Assembly: GCF_030268685.1 (NCBI RefSeq)
Contig: NZ_BSRQ01000001.1
Span: 372,001-436,000 of the forward strand
Direction of reading: 5' to 3'
DNA from: Microtetraspora sp. NBRC 13810
GTDB taxonomy: Bacteria; Actinomycetota; Actinomycetes; Streptosporangiales; Streptosporangiaceae
DNA: 64,000 nt
Positions within the stretch are counted from its first letter, which is position 1, and each line of letters begins with the position of its first letter. Below the pieces are notes generated by a model that was not told where the DNA came from, did not search any database, and saw only the letters and a list, made by a program, of their open reading frames with translations. Below are positions 1,804-15,916 of the stretch, in pieces. Made by a program: the position numbers and the translations under genes.

Positions 1804-2028
1804 ATGGCAAGAAAAACAGACGGCATCGAAGTCGAGGGCACCGTCACCGAGTGCCTGCGCAACGCCACCTTCAGGGTGGAGCTCCAGAACGGGCACAAAG
1901 TGCTAGCGCACATCAGCGGAAAGATACGGAAGAACTACATCAAGATCTTGCCGTATGACCGGGTGCTCGTGGAGCTCAGCCCATACGACCTCACCCGCGG
2001 CCGAATCCTCTTCCGATACAGGACGTAG
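1804..2028 (+). CDS. infA: Translation initiation factor IF-1 (stand-alone paralogue)
   Basis: This 74-residue S1/OB-fold protein covers the whole family length. Hallmarks are [29 protein letters not shown] and [22 protein letters not shown]-1 binds the ribosomal A site and assists IF-2 and IF-3 during initiation in the cytoplasm. It starts at ATG 1804 after AGAAGTGCGAGAAT. The usual actinobacterial infA lies between the ribosomal protein operons next to rpmJ. None of those genes is here, so this is probably a second copy. Relative to typical actinobacterial IF-1 it differs in the N-terminus ([12 protein letters not shown]) and in the [13 protein letters not shown] segment. The fold is certain; the paralogue status is inferred from context. 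Confidence 0.93.
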
Positions 2029-2103
2029 CGGCGGACGGGACACACTGAAATAGGAAAAGAAATCTTCGACCTGGACCAGAGATGTGCTCGATGCCAGCAA
2101 TGA

Positions 2104-2892
2104 TCAAAGCATCTCGACCAGGGTGGCTTCGGTGGTTCTGACACTGCCGTCGGGCCTGCGGTAGGTGACGGGGACTGTGGCTCCCGCGCGTACTTGTGTG
2201 CGGGCGGCGACCTGCTCCTTCGAGTTGGTGATGGGCTTGCCGTTGAAGGAGATGATGACGTCACCGGTACGGATCCCGGCCTTGTCGGCGGGGCCGCCCG
2301 GCGCGACGTCGGCCACCAGGACTCCGCTATTGTCTGGGGTGTCCTCTCGGACGATGCCGAATATGCCGTGCTTGCCCTCGGTGATGATCACGTCGAGGGG
2401 CTGCTGCTCGCCGTCGACGTTCAGGCTTCCGCTGTACCGGGCCCGGGGCACTGGAGCACTGGGGTCGGCCTGGAGCCACACGCGTACCGGCAGATTCCAC
2501 CCCCACCGCCCGGGCCCCATGCGGACGGTGGCGGTGGAGCCGTCGGTGGCGATGGCCTCCGCGCAGGGGCGGGGGCGGCAGTTCATCTCCAGGCGGGTGA
2601 TGCGGGTGTAGCGCGGAGCGGTGAAGGTGAACGTGCCCGAAGCTGGGCGGGTGCGGCGGTCCGGTGGGAAGGTGACAGGCTTCGCAGGGCCCGGGGCATC
2701 GAGTTCCGGCACCTCCTGCTGCGGTGGGATGCGCACGGGCGACGCAGGAAGCACCGCCGAGCCTGTGCGGAGCGCTGCCGATCCGGTGGCCGGAAGGGCG
2801 GATGCGCCCTGGGCGGCACCGGGCAGCGCTAGCGCGATCAGCGCCACGGCCCCCATGGAGGCGGTCCTGCGGCCGACAGTGACGTGTTTCAT
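2104..2892 (-). CDS. Secreted PDZ-domain protein
   Basis: The protein has 262 residues. The N-terminus has a signal-peptide profile (positive MKHVTVGRR, hydrophobic MGAVALIALALPGAA, then small residues). A middle domain of ~110 residues (TFTAPRYTRITRLEMNCRPRPCAEAIATDG) has two close Cys that could form a disulfide. The C-terminal ~90 residues form a PDZ domain (GIFGIVRED ... GVLVADVAPGGPADKAGIRTGDVIISFNGKPI) of the kind found in HtrA and C-terminal processing proteases. No protease domain is attached, so it is more likely an extracytoplasmic binding or adaptor protein. It lies 120 bp downstream of the lasso B2 gene on the same strand and might be co-transcribed. A role in lasso biosynthesis or immunity is only a guess. 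Confidence 0.75.
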   Translation of the reverse strand: MKHVTVGRRTASMGAVALIALALPGAAQGASALPATGSAALRTGSAVLPASPVRIPPQQEVPELDAPGPAKPVTFPPDRRTRPASGTFTFTAPRYTRITRLEMNCRPRPCAEAIATDGSTATVRMGPGRWGWNLPVRVWLQADPSAPVPRARYSGSLNVDGEQQPLDVIITEGKHGIFGIVREDTPDNSGVLVADVAPGGPADKAGIRTGDVIISFNGKPITNSKEQVAARTQVRAGATVPVTYRRPDGSVRTTEATLVEML

Positions 2893-3012
2893 CTGATATT
2901 CCTTCTTTCCTCTATGCGGAGCGTGTACCTCCGAGCCGGGAGGGACACAGGAAGGCCGACGAGATGTTGCGGCGCGTTGTGGCGGAGTGCGCCTAGCCTC
3001 CTCGATGGCCTG

Positions 3013-3447
3013 TCAGGTGGTCGCTTCCAGGTCCACGAGTGGATGGGAGACCGCGAGGATGACCTGGTAGGTGACGGTGTCGGCGGGTTCGCCTATGTGT
3101 TGCCCTTCGGCTTCGACCCAGGCGTGGGCGCTGAAGGGAGGCGTTCGCACGCCGGTACACCATCGGGGCCAGGTGCCGCGCATCCGGCAGAGCAGGGTGG
3201 TGGCCAGGGAGCGTTGCAAGCAGTAGCGGCCGGCGCAGCGCTTGCTGGTGGCGACGATGTCGTTGCGGGCGCGCAGGGCCTGGACGTGGGTGGCGGGGAC
3301 CGAGCCGTGACGGATGAGGCGTAGCACGGCGACGATGCGGCGGGGTGGCAGGCATGCCAGTAGCCGAGCCGCGGTGGTGGCCGCGCGGGCGGTGACGCGT
3401 CGGGTCAACGGTGGGCGGGGGGCGGTGAAGGGGACGATAGGGGTCAT
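3013..3447 (-). CDS. Lasso peptide leader peptidase, B2 (transglutaminase-like)
   Basis: This 144-residue protein of the Transglut_core3/lasso B2 family is the cysteine protease that removes the leader from the lasso precursor. The Cys lies in GRYCLQRSLATTLLCRMRG, and the catalytic His is in PFSAHAWVEAEGQHIGEP. Length and motif order match stand-alone B2 proteins of the split B1/B2 type. Its ATG overlaps the stop codon of the upstream B1 gene as ATGA, so the two are translationally coupled. The gene is part of a minus-strand set running precursor, cyclase, B1, B2. The protein is cytoplasmic and is expected to act with B1, which presents the leader. Confidence 0.9.
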   Translation of the reverse strand: MTPIVPFTAPRPPLTRRVTARAATTAARLLACLPPRRIVAVLRLIRHGSVPATHVQALRARNDIVATSKRCAGRYCLQRSLATTLLCRMRGTWPRWCTGVRTPPFSAHAWVEAEGQHIGEPADTVTYQVILAVSHPLVDLEATT

Positions 3448-3710
3448 GGGGTGACTGTTTCGATGAGGTTGGCCTTGGTGAGGTGTGCGAGCAGGGCCTG
3501 GAGGTCGGCGGCGGCCTGCTCGGCGCTGACGGGGTGGGAGGCTGCCAGGTCCTGAGCGATCTGGGCCGGGGCGGTGCCGGCCAGCAAGGCGCGGACGATG
3601 ATGGTCGCGGTGGCGTTGAGCTGCCAGTATCGGCCGGCTCGCCCGTCCAGCAGGATGAGGGCGTCGGCGGTGTCGCCAAGGCTGACGTGCGTGCTAAGCC
3701 GCACGGACAT
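3444..3710 (-). CDS. Lasso peptide RiPP recognition element, B1 (PqqD-like)
   Basis: This is an 88-residue PqqD-like winged-helix protein. The conserved pattern is visible: ALILLDGRAGRYWQLNATATIIVRALLAGTAPAQIAQDLAA, then AAADLQALLAHLTKANLIET. In lasso clusters such proteins bind the conserved YxxP...G.F..T part of the leader and hand it to the B2 protease. Exactly that leader motif is present in the precursor at 5773-5916. The ATG at 3710 follows a purine-rich AAAGGGGG Shine-Dalgarno. The gene lies 75 bp after the cyclase gene and overlaps B2 by 4 bp. Confidence 0.9.
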   Translation of the reverse strand: MSVRLSTHVSLGDTADALILLDGRAGRYWQLNATATIIVRALLAGTAPAQIAQDLAASHPVSAEQAAADLQALLAHLTKANLIETVTP

Positions 3711-3785
3711 GAAGGGCCCCCTTTCTGGAGCGTTGAGCGCGTCGGCCCCGGGCGTCGCGGCGGATGCCTCCTGCTCGGGGTGGAA

Positions 3786-5663
3786 TCAGTGGTTGATCGG
3801 TGGTGTGCGGATCTGCTCGGCAGCGGGCGCGGGCGGGTGCGGGCTGGCCTGGTGGTGGGCGGCAGCGCGCAGCCACATCTCGCATCCCAGCGTCTGCTGC
3901 AGTGGGACGGCGAGGTCGCTGAAGTTTCGCTGCGGGGCGAGTAGTGCAGCGCGGAAGGCGTCGGAGTCGACCAGTCCCATCCGGGCCAGGTGTGAGTCTT
4001 CGATGAGGTCGAGCAGGTCGCGCCGGTGACGGTGGAAGCCGGCGTAATACTCGGCGGCGTAGTCGCCTTTGGTGACGCGCCGCAGGATCGGCGCGGGGGC
4101 GATGCCGGTCATGGCCGCCGTGAGCAGCGGCTTGAAGGTGCCGCTCTGGGACCAGTCGTGGGAGCGCACCGACAGCACGGCTTCGATCACGGCGTCGTCG
4201 TGGTAGGGAGCGTCGAACGGCACGCCGTGCCGGGCGATGCCCTGCTGCAACAGTCTGTTGCTCGCCCCTGAGCTGCGGATCATGACCAGGAGCTGATGCG
4301 CCGCGCGCTGTGGGGCCAGCGGTTCGGGTGCTTGGCGTGCGATGCCGTCCAGCACGCGCTTGGCCGCGGCCACCGCCTCGGGGGTGGCCCATACCGGCAT
4401 GAACGGCTGGATGGACCAGCTGGTCGAGGGGTCGTTCAGATCGAGAGGCCCGGTGGTGAGGCGTTCGGCGCACCTGGTCAGCCACTTGTCGTAGGGGGTG
4501 TTCTCGACGAGGGCGCGTAGCAGGGTGATGTAGCTCTGCCGCCACATTGGCCGGTGCGCTCTTAGGCGCCGTAGTGCCGTGAGTGGCCGGCTGCGGATCA
4601 GGTCGTGCAGGTAGCCGGGTGTGGGGCAGAACAGTTCGTCGCCGCCGCCACCGGTCAGGTGCAGCCGGGACCCGGCCGCTTTGACCCGGTGGGCCACCGC
4701 TGTCAGGCGTTCGGTGTCGCGAATCCAGCCACCGGGCTCCTCAAGGGCAGGGGGCACGGTGGTCAGCCCGGAGAACCACCTGGGTACCTGTTCGGCGTTG
4801 ATGGTCAGATGTTGGGCCACCGGCAACTCTTCGGCCGCTCGCGTTGCCCAGGCGTCGTCGTCGTTGAAGCGATCAAGTGTGCGGTAGTGCAGGGTGACCA
4901 GGTTGGCTCGCCCCTGCGCTGCCAGAAAGCACAGGCTGGTGGAGTCCAGCCCTCCTGACAGGTCGGCGCTGATGGTGCCGCCCGACGCCGTGCAGGAGTC
5001 CACCGCGCCGATCAGCGCCTCACGCAGCGCAACCGCGCCTTCGTTCAGCGGCATGACCGGGTCGGGAGGGCGCCACCACCGCCGCGTCGCCCACGACCCG
5101 TCCGCGTGCAGCAGCAGCAACGACTCCGGCGCCAAGGCACGTACTCCGCGCCACATGGACGTCTCGTGCACTTGGGCGATCAGCCCGACAGGCAGCAGGC
5201 GAGCGGCGAGCACCTCCTCCTCCACCGGCGCCTCCACCAGTTCAGCCAGCACATCGGCCCTGCTGGCGGCGACCTCGACCCCTGCCAGGCGCGTGTGGAA
5301 CACCCGCCGCATCCCTGAGATCACCCCACGGACGGCCACCTGCCCGCCGGCAGAGACGCACAGATGGAAGCTGCCCGGCAGGCCCACCACGAGCGAGCCG
5401 ATGCGGGCGGGGTCGCGCAGCCCGCGTACTTGTCCGGCCAGGTCGGCGGCGGTGGCCGGGCAGCGCCCGATCACCGCCACCTTCGCCGCGCCCGCACCCG
5501 CCAGGTGCATCTGATCCGCCGGCCACTCACCGACCAGCCATGGCCGCCCAGAGGCGTGCTCGATCACCTGGGCGGCCCGGCGACGCAGCGCGTCAGCCGC
5601 TGCTTGAGCCGCATCCGCGTCCGGAAGCACGGCGAACCACATCTCACCATCCATGGGCATCAC
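3786..5663 (-). CDS. Lasso cyclase (asparagine synthetase-like)
   Basis: The protein has ~625 residues. The N-terminal ~200 resemble the glutamine-hydrolysis domain of asparagine synthetase B but lack an N-terminal catalytic Cys. The C-terminal domain carries the ATP pyrophosphatase motif in ISADLSGGLDSTSLCFLAA (about residue 237) and LHLTGGGGDELF further on. Lasso cyclases adenylate the Asp/Glu side chain and close the macrolactam with the core N-terminus. I chose GTG 5663 (ATG 5660 is next) because GGAGGG lies 7 bp upstream. An ATG at 5693 would add 10 residues. The gene follows the precursor by ~110 bp, with a small hairpin between them, and precedes B1 by 75 bp. Confidence 0.93.
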   Translation of the reverse strand: MMPMDGEMWFAVLPDADAAQAAADALRRRAAQVIEHASGRPWLVGEWPADQMHLAGAGAAKVAVIGRCPATAADLAGQVRGLRDPARIGSLVVGLPGSFHLCVSAGGQVAVRGVISGMRRVFHTRLAGVEVAASRADVLAELVEAPVEEEVLAARLLPVGLIAQVHETSMWRGVRALAPESLLLLHADGSWATRRWWRPPDPVMPLNEGAVALREALIGAVDSCTASGGTISADLSGGLDSTSLCFLAAQGRANLVTLHYRTLDRFNDDDAWATRAAEELPVAQHLTINAEQVPRWFSGLTTVPPALEEPGGWIRDTERLTAVAHRVKAAGSRLHLTGGGGDELFCPTPGYLHDLIRSRPLTALRRLRAHRPMWRQSYITLLRALVENTPYDKWLTRCAERLTTGPLDLNDPSTSWSIQPFMPVWATPEAVAAAKRVLDGIARQAPEPLAPQRAAHQLLVMIRSSGASNRLLQQGIARHGVPFDAPYHDDAVIEAVLSVRSHDWSQSGTFKPLLTAAMTGIAPAPILRRVTKGDYAAEYYAGFHRHRRDLLDLIEDSHLARMGLVDSDAFRAALLAPQRNFSDLAVPLQQTLGCEMWLRAAAHHQASPHPPAPAAEQIRTPPINH

Positions 5664-5752
5664 CGCAGATCCCTCCGTCAGCGTTCGGCTCATCAGTCGT
5701 GCTGAGACACGGCCTGGGCCGTGAACCTGCAGCCGCTCCCAGCCGCGGCCCT

Positions 5753-5767
5753 GCTCCTAACGGGAGC
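5753..5767 (-). terminator. Small hairpin between lasso precursor and cyclase genes
   Basis: A perfect 5-bp stem (GCTCC/GGAGC) with a 5-nt loop lies 6 bp after the precursor stop codon, on the transcript reading toward the cyclase. There is no T-run, so it is unlikely to be a full terminator. It could be a processing or attenuation element that keeps precursor mRNA in excess over the enzyme genes, as is common in RiPP operons. Confidence 0.4.
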
Positions 5768-5772
5768 GGGTC

Positions 5773-5916
5773 CTACCACCAGACGCGGAAGAACGCATTC
5801 GACCCAGAGCCACCGTCGGGGACGCCGAGGGAAGCGCCGAGGGTGTGATCGGCGAAGCCGCCGATCTCGATCATCGCGGGCGGCTCGTACACCGCCTGGC
5901 AAGGAAAGGTCTCCAC
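5773..5916 (-). CDS. Lasso peptide precursor (47 aa)
   Basis: This short ORF begins at GTG 5916, 8 bp after AAAGGAG. The leader contains YEPPAMIEIGGFADHT, which matches the conserved lasso leader pattern Y..P.....G.F...T read by B1 proteins. The Thr is the expected penultimate leader residue, so cleavage should fall after Leu27. The predicted core begins GASLGVPD. Gly1 and Asp8 give a canonical 8-residue macrolactam ring. It is followed by GGSGSNAFFRVWW as loop and tail, with Phe/Arg/Trp available as steric plugs. There is no Cys in the core, so this is class II (the single Cys is in the leader). The gene is directly upstream of the cyclase, B1 and B2 genes and divergent from the exporter. 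The ring assignment is inferred from position 8 Asp. Confidence 0.9.
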   Translation of the reverse strand: METFPCQAVYEPPAMIEIGGFADHTLGASLGVPDGGSGSNAFFRVWW

Positions 5917-6134
5917 AGCACACGCTCCTTTCACTGCACTGATGTGTCACCCCTTCTCTACCATTACTCTCAGTAGCTATAGAGATACTTTTTGTTACCA
6001 GCACTGTAGGTGGATGGGTACACAAAGACGCCGCGCACCCCGTACACCCAAGAGGTGCTGTGCCGCCGACAGCGAGGACGCCCCTCGATTGCACCGAGAT
6101 GGGGCCCCAGGTAGTCACGGAGAAGGGCTGAGAC
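5917..6134. promoter_or_regulatory. Divergent lasso promoter region with imperfect palindrome
   Basis: These 218 bp separate the precursor and exporter genes and must contain both promoters. The central part (5955-6000) is clearly more A/T-rich than its surroundings. An 18-bp imperfect palindrome, AGTAGCTATAGAGATACT at 5972-5989 (14 of 18 positions symmetric), could be an operator. No regulator gene is adjacent, and I cannot place -10/-35 boxes with confidence. Confidence 0.45.
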
Positions 6135-7865
6135 ATGGTGATCAGAGAGCTATTCGCCTACCTGTGGCCACACAAGTGGATCTTGATGGCCGGTGGATCA
6201 CTGGGACTGGTCGGCTCAGCCGCGGGACTCGCGATGCCCTTGCTCGCCAAGCACATGGTGGACGCCCTCGGCGAGCACCGCCCGATGGGCGGGCTTCTCC
6301 TCGCGCTGACCGTGGCAGTGCTGGTCGGAGCCGTGGTCTCGGCGCTGGGCACGTACATGATGGAGCGGACCGGCGAGGGCATCGTGCTCGGCGCGCGGCA
6401 CAGACTCGTCGACCGGATGCTCCGTCTGAAGATGGCCGATGTCGACCACCTCCAGCCCGGCGACCTGCTGTCGCGGGTGACCGGCGACACGATCTTGCTG
6501 CGCGTCGTCCTGACCAACGGGGTCGTCAACTCGATCAACGCCGCGTTCCTGCTGGTCGGAGCCATCGTCCTGATGGCAGCCATGGACGGCGTGCTGCTGA
6601 TGGTGGTCATGCTGCTTGTGGTGGTCTTCATCGGCGGGCTTACCGGACTGATCATGCCGACTATCCGACGAACCCAGAAGCGGGCCCAAGAGGCTCTAGG
6701 TGATACAGGGGCCATGCTCGACCGCTCACTCCAGGCCCACCGGACCGTCAAAGCCAACGGCGCGGAGGAGCGCGAGATCGCGGTCATCAGCGACGCCGCA
6801 ACGCGCGCCCGCGACAAAGGACTGCAGGTCGCCCGGTGGATATCGCTGTCCAGAATGACGACCCGGATGGCGATGCAGATCGCGTTCGTGTGCGTGCTGG
6901 CCGTCGGTGGCGCCCGAGTGGCCTCGGGCGCGCTGGAGCTCTCCGGGCTGATCGCGTTCCTGCTGTACCTCTTCTACCTGATCGCCCCCATCGGGCAGAT
7001 CGTCGAAGGTCTCGTGCAACTCCAGCACGGACTGGCGGCCGTGAACCGAATCAAGGAGATCGAGGACCTGCCCACCGAGCTCATCGTCACCCCCGCGCCC
7101 CTCACCCGCTCCGAACCCGCCGGCTCCCCACCCATCGGGGTGCGATTCCAGGACGTCGTCTTCCGATACGGCGAGTACCGGCCGATCGTCCACAACGGCG
7201 TCACCTTCGACGTACGGCCCGGCGGGCTGACCGCACTCGTGGGGCCATCAGGCGCAGGCAAATCCACCGTGTTCGCCCTGCTGGAACGCTTCTACGACCA
7301 CCAGAGCGGCACGATCACCGTGGACGACCGCGACATCCGCGACTGGCCACTCGCCGAACTACGGGCCACACTCGGCTACGTCGAACAGGACGCGCCCGTG
7401 CTGTCCGGGACCCTCCGGGAGAATCTGCTCTACGCCGCCCAGGACGCCACAGAGGAAGAACTGGCACGCGCCATCTCCCGTACGCGGCTCGGCGACCTGG
7501 TCACCCGGCTGCCAGAGGGCCTCGACACTCCCGTCGGCCACCGCGGCGTGCTGCTGTCCGGCGGAGAGCGTCAGCGCGTAGCCATCGCCAGGGCACTGCT
7601 CCGCAAGCCCCGGCTGCTGCTACTCGATGAGGCGACCTCCCAGCTTGACGCTGTCAACGAGCTGAGACTGCGCGAGGTCATCGCCGAGACGGCCACCGAG
7701 ACAACTGTTCTGATCATCGCCCACCGGCTCTCGACGGTCACCGACGCCGACCGCATCGTGGTCATGGAGGCAGGCGAAGTACGCGCCGTAGGGACGCACG
7801 ACGAACTGGTGGGTCAGGACAATCTCTACCGTGAGCTGGCCGCCACCCAGTTCCTGCTGAGCTGA
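6135..7865 (+). CDS. Lasso peptide ABC exporter (fused permease-ATPase)
   Basis: This is a 576-residue type I ABC exporter half-transporter. About six membrane segments occupy residues 1-300. The nucleotide-binding domain follows, with Walker A GPSGAGKST (370-378), signature LLSGGERQR, Walker B LLLLDEATS and the switch His in IIAHRLST. There is no N-terminal C39 peptidase domain, as expected when leader removal is done by B1/B2. It is expected to export the mature lasso peptide and confer self-immunity, acting as a homodimer in the membrane. The start ATG 6135 has AGAAGG 7 bp upstream. It is divergent from the precursor and biosynthetic genes. Confidence 0.9.
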   Translation: MVIRELFAYLWPHKWILMAGGSLGLVGSAAGLAMPLLAKHMVDALGEHRPMGGLLLALTVAVLVGAVVSALGTYMMERTGEGIVLGARHRLVDRMLRLKMADVDHLQPGDLLSRVTGDTILLRVVLTNGVVNSINAAFLLVGAIVLMAAMDGVLLMVVMLLVVVFIGGLTGLIMPTIRRTQKRAQEALGDTGAMLDRSLQAHRTVKANGAEEREIAVISDAATRARDKGLQVARWISLSRMTTRMAMQIAFVCVLAVGGARVASGALELSGLIAFLLYLFYLIAPIGQIVEGLVQLQHGLAAVNRIKEIEDLPTELIVTPAPLTRSEPAGSPPIGVRFQDVVFRYGEYRPIVHNGVTFDVRPGGLTALVGPSGAGKSTVFALLERFYDHQSGTITVDDRDIRDWPLAELRATLGYVEQDAPVLSGTLRENLLYAAQDATEEELARAISRTRLGDLVTRLPEGLDTPVGHRGVLLSGGERQRVAIARALLRKPRLLLLDEATSQLDAVNELRLREVIAETATETTVLIIAHRLSTVTDADRIVVMEAGEVRAVGTHDELVGQDNLYRELAATQFLLS

Positions 7866-8010
7866 CTCGATCCATCACCAGGGCCACCGCCCGCATAATC
7901 CGCGGAATAGCATTGAGAAGCATCTACGCAGGTCAAGAGGCCTCCCGCCGTCAGCCGCACAAAGCTTCCAACTCGCTGGCAGATTGCTGCAGAATTCCGC
8001 CTGGCGAGGC

Positions 8011-8220
8011 TCACTCGCCAGGCGCCGCATCCTCGAAGATCAACTCGACGTGGTCACCCCGCAGAACCTCGCGGAGCTTCCGGTGCCCCGGCACGATCTC
8101 GAACAGTGGCACACCCTCGGGCATGCCACCGAACTCCCGCAACTCCACTGACGTTGCCAGGTCGCGCCGCTCGTCCGGCATCGGCATGCGCGTAATGACA
8201 CGCGCCCCACTGGGAACGTG
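8011..8220 (-). pseudogene. C-terminal fragment of a GntR-like regulator
   Basis: The last ~68 codons of a minus frame read GARVITRMPMPDERRDLATSVELREFGGMPEGVPLFEIVPGHRKLREVLRGDHVELIFED and stop. 'RMPMPDERR', a 'GVPLFEI' strand and a final 'D.VELIFE' are typical of the C-terminal effector part of short actinomycete GntR/UTRA-like regulators. No DNA-binding half is found upstream. The frame runs instead into the repeated hairpin sequence near 8280, which suggests deletion by recombination there. Confidence 0.4.
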
Positions 8221-8279
8221 GTGCGGCCGCCGGCCGCTTCGAGGTTAAGGCCGAGGCTCCGTTTCCGGCACGCAGCCAG

Positions 8280-8322
8280 TGATCCACAACGAGAACGGGC
8301 GGGACTCCGTGAGACTGGAGAC
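8280..8322. repeat. Partial copy of the tRNA-Arg flanking repeat (copy A)
   Basis: About 40 bp match the sequence flanking the tRNA-Arg gene (copy C, near 15235) and copy B near 9780. The match includes the 5' arm and loop of the GC-rich hairpin (GGGCGGGACTCC...). It breaks off at GGAGAC, before the 3' arm is complete. This looks like a recombination scar from an earlier insertion at the same site. Confidence 0.7.
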
Positions 8323-8493
8323 GCTCGATTCCGCGGTCAGCTCAGAGGCCGGCCCGTTGACCGGCCCGGAGGGCGGCCCGGTGCCGGATCGCGCGGGAGG
8401 CCGATCTCGCACGATCCGCCGTCGAGCGGGCTCGGGATCCGTAGGGGTCACCTGTCAAACGTTGCCGCCTGGCAAGTGGTCGGGAAAGGACAT

Positions 8494-8994
8494 ATGCGGC
8501 AAGATAACTCAAGGATCAAGGAGGTTCGGAGCCGTTGCCGGCACCGGGAAAGAGCGCGCAACTTGACTGACATCGAATCAGAAAAAGTCTACAGAATACG
8601 GAACGTGAAGTCCGGCACCTATATCGATATCGCCGAGGACGGCGGCACGGTCCATGCCGTCGGAAATCCTTTGAATGACAGCGACACCCAGATGTGGCAG
8701 CTCAACCGGATCGGGGATGGGTGGACCCTGCGGAACGTCGGAACAGGTACATACCTCAGCACCGATCTTCAGCCGAAGAATGACGACGGCGCCCTTCTGC
8801 GGGAATCCCCGTTCGAGTGGCATGTGTGGGAGGAAGAGGCGGTCGCGCTGTCCTGCCGCGTGTGTGTCCCCAACTGCAAGAAAGATCTCGAAGTTACGAA
8901 CCACGGGTCCTCCGACCCTGGAACGAGAATAGCGGTATGGGGAAGATGGGAAGGGCAGAACCAAATGTGGTTCTTCGAAGAGTGTAAGTCATAG
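8494..8994 (+). CDS. Small ricin-type beta-trefoil lectin-like protein
   Basis: The conserved part reads VYRIRNVKSGTYIDIAEDGGTVHAVGNPLNDSDTQMWQLNRIGDGWTLRNVGTGTYLSTDL and later VTNHGSSDPGTRIAVWGRWEGQNQMWFF. The repeated 'S/GTYI.....G' and 'Q.W' motifs are those of RICIN carbohydrate-binding modules. Only about one trefoil (~140 residues) is present and no signal peptide is seen. ATG 8494 has a GGAAAGGA close upstream. TTG 8563 is an alternative and would begin right at the conserved domain (TDIESEKVYRI). It is A/T-richer than its neighbours and lies between recombination scars, consistent with acquisition. Its function is unknown beyond likely glycan binding. Confidence 0.65.
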   Translation: MRQDNSRIKEVRSRCRHRERARNLTDIESEKVYRIRNVKSGTYIDIAEDGGTVHAVGNPLNDSDTQMWQLNRIGDGWTLRNVGTGTYLSTDLQPKNDDGALLRESPFEWHVWEEEAVALSCRVCVPNCKKDLEVTNHGSSDPGTRIAVWGRWEGQNQMWFFEECKS

Positions 8995-8996
8995 CG

Positions 8997-9179
8997 CCGA
9001 TCACGCACCTTGACCGCACCCTGGACGTCCACGACAACGGCACGATCCGGGCCTGGCCGCTCGCCGTCTACGGGCACCTGGCCGAGCGGGCGCTGATCCA
9101 CAGCGGACGCGGTGAAACCGTGCGCTTGAGCAACGCCGGACGGCTCGACCCTCACTTCCCTGCCCATGGGCCGGGCCAC
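8997..9179 (+). pseudogene. Unidentified coding-like fragment
   Basis: Between the lectin stop codon and the IS5 remnant one plus frame has strong coding-type third-position GC. It reads ITHLDRTLDVHDNGTIRAWPLAVYGHLAERALIHSGRGETVRL. No start codon or Shine-Dalgarno is apparent, and the frame is cut by the transposon end at about 9180. I do not recognise the protein; it is probably an internal fragment of a gene disrupted by the insertion. Confidence 0.25.
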
Positions 9180-9202
9180 CTAAGGCCCTGTATCGAAGTG
9201 GG

Positions 9203-9561
9203 TCAGAGCCATTCGTTGATGGCGGCGATGCAAATCGTGGCCTCGTAGCGTACGGCCAACTTGTCGAACCGGGTGGCCACCGCGCGGCTGCGTTTGAGAC
9301 GGCCGATGCCGCATTCCACGGCGTGGCGCTGCTTGTATATCTCGGGGTCGAAGAGCAATGGCCGACCGCCCTTCGCCCCCTTCTTGCGACGTGCGACGTC
9401 CTGGTCGGCCTTGCTGGGGATGGTGGCCTTGATGCCGCGCCTGCGCAGGTGCTCCGGTTGGCCTTGGAGGTGCAGGCCGTATCGGCCGGCACTCGATCTG
9501 GACGGGTTCGGGGACGGCCGCCGCAGGTACGGGGTGCTCGGATAGCGGCCAGGACAGCCAA
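9203..9561 (-). pseudogene. IS5-family transposase remnant (5'-truncated, frameshifted)
   Basis: One minus frame ends [20 protein letters not shown], then [20 protein letters not shown], then a run to [21 protein letters not shown] and a stop. This is the characteristic C-terminus of IS5-family transposases, with the DDE-type Glu in [11 protein letters not shown]. The preceding part ([23 protein letters not shown]) lies in another frame, so there is a frameshift near 9465. The catalytic N-terminal half is missing. The sequence GGCCCTGTATCGAAGTGG just downstream (9183-9200) resembles an IS terminal repeat. Confidence 0.8.
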
Positions 9562-9746
9562 AGGCTTCCCCGTAAGCCTGCTGCCGGTGCTGGGCGTCTC
9601 AACGTCGGGCTCTACGTCTGATGATGACCACGGCCCACCCTCGCAGAGATGGCCCAGGCACGATCGGCACCACGCCTGCGGGGATGCTCACAGCCCTAGA
9701 TCAGGTTTACGCTCGTAACCCTGGCTCGCCCCTCGCCAAGGTGCGG

Positions 9747-9924
9747 ATCATGGGTCCATAACTGGTCTACAGATGATGATCCACAATGAGAACGGGCGGG
9801 ACTCCGTGAGACTGGAGACCCGCCCGATGCTGTGCTGTCTGCCCTGGTCAGCAGCCATAACCGCTGATCAAGACTGTGTGCCCCCTGCAAGATTCGAACT
9901 TGCGCTCCCGGCTCCGGAGGCCGG
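9747..9924. repeat. att-like repeat: duplicated 3' half of tRNA-Arg with its hairpin (copy B)
   Basis: Positions 9864-9924 are identical over 61 bp to 15317-15377. They include the last 46 bp of the tRNA-Arg gene (discriminator, acceptor 3' strand, T-arm and most of the anticodon stem). Similarity with mismatches extends left to about 9747 and includes a complete GC hairpin (9794-9825). The 5' half of the tRNA is absent, so this is not a tRNA gene. It is what integration at a tRNA 3' end leaves behind. From 9562 to 9746 I see no gene. Confidence 0.85.
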
Positions 9925-15403: not shown

Positions 15404-15520
15404 CTGACGAGAGATAAGGCTACCAGCATCTGACCATCACTCGTCACCTTGATATCGCTCAGGGCACACATCCCTCGAAAGTCGCACGGGACCCCCCTTG
15501 GAAGAGTTAGCCTCGCGGCC

Positions 15521-15916
15521 GTGGGTGAGGTTCTCGGGCGGGTACTCGTAGTGGATGATGATGAGGTCATCCGGCAGCTCATCGCGGTCAACCTGACGCT
15601 GGAGGGGTTCCAGGTCGAGACCGCCTGCGATGGGCAGGACTGTCTTGATCGCGTGCTGGACGTGATGCCCGACGTGATCACGCTGGACGTGATGATGCCT
15701 CGGCTCGACGGCTGGGTCACCGCGGCGCGCCTCAGGAACGATGAGGAGACCAGCCACATCAAGGTGGTGCTGATCACGGCGCGGGCCCAGGAGCATGACC
15801 GGCAGCGCGGCCTGGGGATCGGCGTGGACGCCTATCTCACCAAGCCGTTCGATCCTGCCGAGTTGATCCAGGTGGTGCGGGATCTCGCCGTGTCCGCGCG
15901 TGCGGGGCGGGCTTAG
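15521..15916 (+). CDS. Single-domain response regulator
   Basis: This 131-residue receiver domain has no output domain. The acidic pocket is VVDDDE (residues 10-15), the phosphoacceptor is Asp56 in DVITLDVMMP, Thr is in VVLITARA, and Lys is in YLTKPFDPAEL. GTG 15521 is chosen because it sits just before the conserved fold. An ATG at 15449 would add 24 residues that overlap the tRNA promoter region. No histidine kinase is adjacent, so the partner is unknown. Stand-alone receivers act by protein-protein contact, often on kinases or anti-sigma systems. Confidence 0.88.
   Translation: MGEVLGRVLVVDDDEVIRQLIAVNLTLEGFQVETACDGQDCLDRVLDVMPDVITLDVMMPRLDGWVTAARLRNDEETSHIKVVLITARAQEHDRQRGLGIGVDAYLTKPFDPAELIQVVRDLAVSARAGRA

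Follow-up and report, generated by a model that had tools for sequence, protein, structure and literature searches.

A candidate class II lasso peptide cluster beside a divergent Nonomuraea-type ABC exporter gene in Microtetraspora sp. NBRC 13810

Does a 64,000-nucleotide stretch of the Microtetraspora sp. NBRC 13810 genome (GCF_030268685.1, contig NZ_BSRQ01000001.1, positions 372,001 to 436,000; the whole stretch is called the window and numbered from its first letter) encode the synthesis of a lasso peptide that has not been described before, and does it also encode the means to export it? The question arose from positions 2104-7865, for which a sequence-only reading, made without database searches, had proposed a complete class II lasso peptide cluster with all enzymes and an exporter. 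The features that bear on biosynthesis all lie on the minus strand:

5773-5916, minus strand: lasso precursor (A), 47 residues, GTG start at 5916 (read directly)
5839-5916, minus strand: precursor leader, 26 residues, VETFPCQAVYEPPAMIEIGGFADHTL
5776-5838, minus strand: precursor core, 21 residues, GASLGVPDGGSGSNAFFRVWW
5773-5775, minus strand: precursor stop codon
5925-5931, minus strand: Shine-Dalgarno-like AAAGGAG, 8 nucleotides before the GTG at 5916 (read directly)
3786-5693, minus strand: lasso cyclase (C), 635 residues, asparagine-synthetase-like (PF00733, 139 bits; SGGLDS motif at residue 246)
3444-3710, minus strand: B1, PqqD-like leader-binding protein (RRE), 88 residues (PF05402, 55 bits; NF033530, 87 bits, cut-off 70)
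3013-3447, minus strand: B2, transglutaminase-like leader peptidase, 144 residues (PF13471, 79 bits; NF033537, 108 bits, cut-off 33)

Together, these genes very probably direct the synthesis of a new class II lasso peptide (probability roughly 0.88), because leader, B1, and B2 pass curated models and because gene order, cleavage site, and Asp8 of the core fit. The genes, their order, the leader, the conserved cleavage site, and the single acidic acceptor can be read from the DNA itself.

The precursor reads exactly as had been described, a 47-residue frame opened by GTG. The list of open reading frames (ORFs) begins it at another GTG, 5934 (53 residues), which precedes the AAAGGAG; as this site lies just upstream of 5916, the start at 5916 is the better one and 5934 is less likely. 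The leader, which had been recognized as lasso-type by eye, scored 23.3 bits with the NCBIfam model NF033521 (lasso_leader_L3; cut-off 19, E 4.3e-5), and the gene is located 79 nucleotides upstream of the cyclase gene on the same strand. Model match and position together place the precursor far beyond chance. The notion that it is too short for standard gene calling did not hold, since a curated NCBI leader model recognizes it.

At the boundary of leader and core, the precursor reads T-L-G, which fits the cleavage rule; a conserved Thr as the penultimate leader residue is described for lasso precursors in PMC10368454. Asp8 is the sole acidic residue (Asp or Glu) of the core, which thus has an acidic acceptor within positions 7-9. 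Because no other acceptor exists and because lasso rings usually comprise 7-9 residues (PMC8498205), Gly1-Asp8 is the only ring of usual size and the natural prediction. The core contains no Cys (the single one of the 47-residue precursor is in the leader), and the assignment of the predicted product to class II is thereby supported, as had been proposed. Position 8 is followed by a Gly/Ser-rich stretch, and the core includes the pieces GGSGSNA and FFRVWW, with a Trp pair at the C-terminus.

A, C, B1, and B2 follow one another in this order on one strand, tightly spaced and with every frame open; B1 and B2 share 4 nucleotides where the one ends and the other starts. The claim that all enzymes are present was borne out, as B1 and B2 pass the NCBI lasso models and the cyclase is identified by its Asn_synthase domain, the SGGLDS motif, and its grouping in a tree. 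When B2 was aligned with its relatives, the Cys of YCLQRSL was matched in 8/9 rows (the ninth, from locus L089, is not covered there) and the His of AHAWV in all nine.

The cyclase is 50-55% identical to the cyclases of eight other loci. In a maximum-likelihood tree of 33 cyclases, it joined these eight with 100/99 support and branched off first within the group. Members of the group are three Nonomuraea loci, three loci of the genus labeled g56, one of G316, and a second cluster of the same genome. All four genes were readable in half of them (L087, L088, and L090 from Nonomuraea, and L091 from the same genome), and the order A-C-B1-B2 is common to these four and the window, with identities to the window of 54-55% for the cyclase, 37-51% for B1, and 54-61% for B2. 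T-x-G was present at the cleavage site in all five precursors read in this clade (the four just named and that of L089, genome G293), which agrees with the core boundary proposed beforehand. An acidic residue stands at core position 9 in four of the five (GHPSGFVID.., GLPSGFVLE.., GYPSGSVID.., and GFPPGDLFD..); the window core shares G1 and G5 with its relatives, and its predicted ring would be one residue shorter.

The remaining precursor, upstream of the L089 cyclase, is of the lasso type with the core GAPPGDVPGRPPRPFPFCSHQA and lacks an acidic residue at positions 7-9. A and B1 were found in L089 and B2 matched only partially; it appears to be a decaying or unusual cluster. The second lasso cluster of the same genome (L091; G000:C11:204000-220000) extends over ∼6883-9843 with remnants to 14462 and has the core GFPPGDLFDWPPQPFQFFNAQG. 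In L087, an IucA/IucC siderophore-synthetase gene (5387-7060) lies upstream of the Nonomuraea lasso precursor on the same strand; the domain was tested in L087 alone, and ORFs resembling this gene are found in L088 and L090.

From knowledge of the family, we infer how leader binding, cleavage, ring formation, threading, and plugging of the tail might proceed, and likewise export and a biological activity of the product. B1 would bind the leader at its YEPPAMIEIGGF region, and B2 would cut after Thr-Leu, freeing Gly1 of GASLGVPDGGSGSNAFFRVWW. The cyclase would activate Asp8 with ATP and close the eight-residue Gly1-Asp8 ring around the tail, which bulky residues would hold in place; Phe16/Phe17 and the two C-terminal Trp are the likeliest plugs, and GGSGSNA would form a loop above the ring. 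The product would be the linear core less one water, for which a monoisotopic [M+H]+ of 2149.025 and an [M+2H]2+ of 1075.016 were computed, against 2166.028 for the neutral linear core.

Whether export is also encoded depends on the gene on the other side of the precursor, from which it diverges at a distance of 218 nucleotides from the precursor start:

6135-7865, plus strand: MsbA-type ABC exporter, 576 residues, candidate lasso exporter (PF00664 and PF00005)

All 54 Nonomuraea genomes (label g39) among the 341 genomes of the family that were searched carry this exporter, 71-81% identical to the window copy, and the resident copy of the same genome, at C1:99432, is just 60% identical to it. 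In five Nonomuraea loci that were fetched (L116, L117, L118, L122, and L123), the exporter occupies its resident site, with neighbors shared with the copies of other genera; no other window gene matched in these five loci, and they contain no lasso genes. In an exporter tree (20 rows, 16 of them different, with just a share of the Nonomuraea genomes included), the resident copy of the same genome grouped with that of G292 (100/100) and the window copy fell among the Nonomuraea rows (87/97, a fork that is not strong), with 100/100 for a larger set including G310. On account of the identities, the synteny at the resident site, and the placement in the tree, the window gene is most readily explained as an extra housekeeping exporter copy of the Nonomuraea type. 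Descent as a lasso-specific exporter was not supported, on the same grounds. Compared with solved structures, the protein matched general exporters only, at a strict cut-off of 1e-80.

The window's exporter type was found beside none of the eight nearest lasso loci and is not conserved beside the related clusters. Six of the eight have a two-gene ABC-2 exporter instead, downstream of B2 or C (Pfam was run for L087 and L093 only), L091 has pieces of one, and G316 has none. In G291 and G292, the ABC-2 exporter is located directly 3′ of the cyclase gene; that of L091 consists of two leftover pieces ∼4 kb apart, as if interrupted. The earlier statement that the exporter is present may hold: an exporter gene is there, and it appears to be a housekeeping copy of the Nonomuraea type and not of the type that the nearest clusters use.

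Twenty further lasso-cyclase loci, one per genome, were taken from 104 listed genomes; the choice was not random, and G320 was included since both genes were already known to adjoin there. An exporter 44-55% identical over 87-99% of the length of the window gene lies directly 3′ of B2 in four of them (L126 from G320, L127, L135, and L140), or in 3/19 when G320 is left aside. Relatives were also found ∼3.5 kb away in L130 and L136, and a weaker match (33%) ∼3 kb away in L137. An ATPase that resembles the ABC-2 type more lies no further than 0.6 kb from B2 in L130, L143, and L144, and L129 gave nothing but a distant ATPase match. With the queries used, no exporter was seen after B2 in the rest of the 20 (L142 showed no B1 or B2, and the contig of L145 ends after B1). 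As relatives directly follow B2 in 4/20 loci, the window's exporter type can, judged by gene neighborhood, accompany lasso clusters, and recruitment of the ABC gene by the lasso cluster appears plausible.

That 6135-7865 encodes the working exporter of the lasso peptide is slightly favored; the gene would most likely serve export and self-protection, having been recruited from a Nonomuraea-type housekeeping exporter. The lasso genes may, however, be real and the ABC gene a bystander, a horizontally acquired Nonomuraea duplicate, in which case export would be by another pump or poor. The occurrence of the exporter in every Nonomuraea genome at 71-81% identity, its resident site without lasso genes in the five loci examined, and the different two-gene exporter in six of the eight nearest clusters all point that way, and the fact that the gene's close relatives occupy resident sites apart from any lasso genes weighs against a dedicated exporter. 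On the other hand, the genome has its own resident copy, so an extra one is not obviously needed for housekeeping; the gene is divergent and close to the precursor start; members of its family stand immediately after B2 in four of 20 other lasso loci (three of 19 without the picked one); and the ABC gene of the RES-701 cluster is likewise on the complementary strand (PMC7280977). A bystander is thus a serious prospect, although at somewhat less than even odds. Recruitment combined with a particular product, i.e. a lasso lineage that uses a transferred Nonomuraea housekeeping exporter as export/immunity pump and makes a peptide with a linker-like GGSGSNA loop between an eight-residue ring and a bulky FFRVWW tail, is put forward tentatively. 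If true, the natural linker-like loop would be a ready-made scaffold for loop grafting. The extra exporter copy, traceable to the resident gene of another genus, offers a concrete case in which to study how lasso clusters gain pumps.

Several observations weigh against the lasso cluster as proposed here. The cyclase matched two lasso-type cyclase models from NCBI but stayed below the cut-offs of both (259/300 and 41/525 bits); the best curated model was NF033561 (albusnodin/ikarugamycin family macrolactam cyclase; 259.4 bits, E 6.7e-77), of which the cyclase is not a member by the cut-off test. Its branch in the tree was flagged as long (0.54) by the tree program, which makes the inner order of the group less sure. 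A promoter scan by consensus, covering sigma-70-type sites only, found none in 2000-9000; the same scan placed a single terminator-like site, within the cyclase gene, which is fewer than in shuffled sequence. Three loci of the same clade (L092 and L093 from G291 and G292, and L094 from G316) have a lasso-type cyclase, but neither a precursor nor B1 or B2 could be detected in them. These three indicate that decay does occur in the clade, and together with the G293 precursor lacking an acidic residue at positions 7-9 and the fragmented ABC-2 exporter of the genome's second cluster, they lend some substance to the idea that the window's cluster, being silent or degenerate, makes no lasso peptide. 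In the window, by contrast, none of the four frames (A, C, B1, and B2) is interrupted, the genes are closely packed in the usual order, and cleavage site, ring acceptor, Cys and His of B2, and the cyclase motif are intact, which renders a dead cluster improbable.

The remaining gene of the span originally assigned to the cluster (2104-7865) is located on its far side:

2104-2892, minus strand: secreted PDZ-domain protein, 262 residues (PF13180, 53 bits; signal-peptide-like N-terminus by eye)

Lasso genes occupy 3013-5916 of this span, and 2104-2892 encodes no lasso enzyme, so the proposed extent stands in part only. Being on the same strand, 120 nucleotides downstream of B2, and apparently secreted, the PDZ protein might be a cluster gene, e.g. 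an extracytoplasmic maturation or immunity factor. The PDZ domain itself is common in the family, with matches in 291/341 genomes at 1e-6, whereas among the matches listed only six other genomes match well past that domain (G180, 76% identity; G077, G268, G003, and G080, 38-41%; G233, 31%, residues 17-170 only). In the loci of these six relatives (11.7-14 kb fetched), none of the four lasso genes A, C, B1, and B2 is present; a search of 31 lasso-cyclase loci gave no homolog (E 1e-5); and "lasso peptide" and "PDZ domain" occurred together in no paper found by the literature text search. As the relatives' loci are devoid of lasso genes and lasso-cyclase loci of homologs, the protein is probably a bystander, a neighbor of the cluster; a role as cluster member, rejected on genomic context, is very unlikely.

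With the lasso cluster as the preferred reading, it remains to be said how new its product would be. GASLGVPD had no match in the searched literature text, nor had six core pieces of the window and related peptides, and "lasso peptide" together with GGSGS was in no paper found, with supplementary core lists and the bulk of subscription papers outside the coverage; an earlier listing of the core in a genome-mining table is possible. With the precursor as query, 15/341 family genomes, including that of the window, matched at E 0.01; alignments lay in the leader and extended no further than core residue 9, except in G253 and G232, where they go beyond it over an internal TAG and did not read as precursors. 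Among 394 genomes of the class (some of the same family), only the genome of the window itself matched at E 0.001. As the leader dominates such searches, they could miss a comparable core preceded by a strongly divergent leader. A plasmid search gave three weak matches (E 3-9), all under other annotated genes. Thus, the core is new in the searched papers and genomes, and the lasso system itself belongs to a familiar type. None of the relatives' cores that were read resembles this core in its Gly/Ser loop, and lasso peptides, prized for their stability, would gain a new scaffold with the product; otherwise, this is an ordinary genome-mining find.

Among known systems, the RES-701-3/-4 cluster resembles the window in having A, C, B1, and B2 on one strand, a split B, a class II product, and an ABC exporter gene on the opposite strand; its Gly-1/Asp-8 ring is stated in PMC7280977, whereas that of the window is predicted. 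The cores differ, and the window exporter belongs to the Nonomuraea housekeeping orthologue group. The Nonomuraea lasso clusters (L006-L008, the same places as L087, L088, and L090), which are uncharacterized, and L091 share gene order, T-x-G, and core G1/G5 with the window; unlike it, they have the acidic residue at core position 9 and none of their four cores contains a GGSGS loop, and the Nonomuraea clusters have the two-gene ABC-2 exporter. The MS-271 precursor (PDB 8itg, chain B) shares the leader pattern YEPP-x-x-x-E-x-G-x-F-x-x-x-T with the window, in a weak match (E 0.16) essentially confined to the leader. The cyclase matched no solved structure at 1e-5.

The GC content at third codon positions of the four longer genes of 2104-7865 averaged 0.843, compared with 0.910 in 40 other called ORFs of the window (standard deviation 0.07). 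As a sign of transfer, base composition was discarded as weak; the ORF caller is heuristic and can pick antisense frames. A response regulator (window 15449-15916) is 83% identical to L096 11732-12157. Any relation to the PDZ gene is doubtful, as in G180 the regulator is on the other side of that gene relative to its direction and the order is not kept. Further out, short tandem repeats (CTCGATCAC, then CTCGATCGG-like units) were seen by eye at ∼860-955, where no clear genes are found. Just past the PDZ gene, 1804-2028 (plus strand) encodes a second translation initiation factor IF-1 (infA), which scores over the model cut-off, as does the other infA copy of the genome (C1:808471-808677). Beyond the exporter gene, 8557-8991 (plus strand) encodes a ricin-type beta-trefoil lectin domain protein of ∼145 residues.

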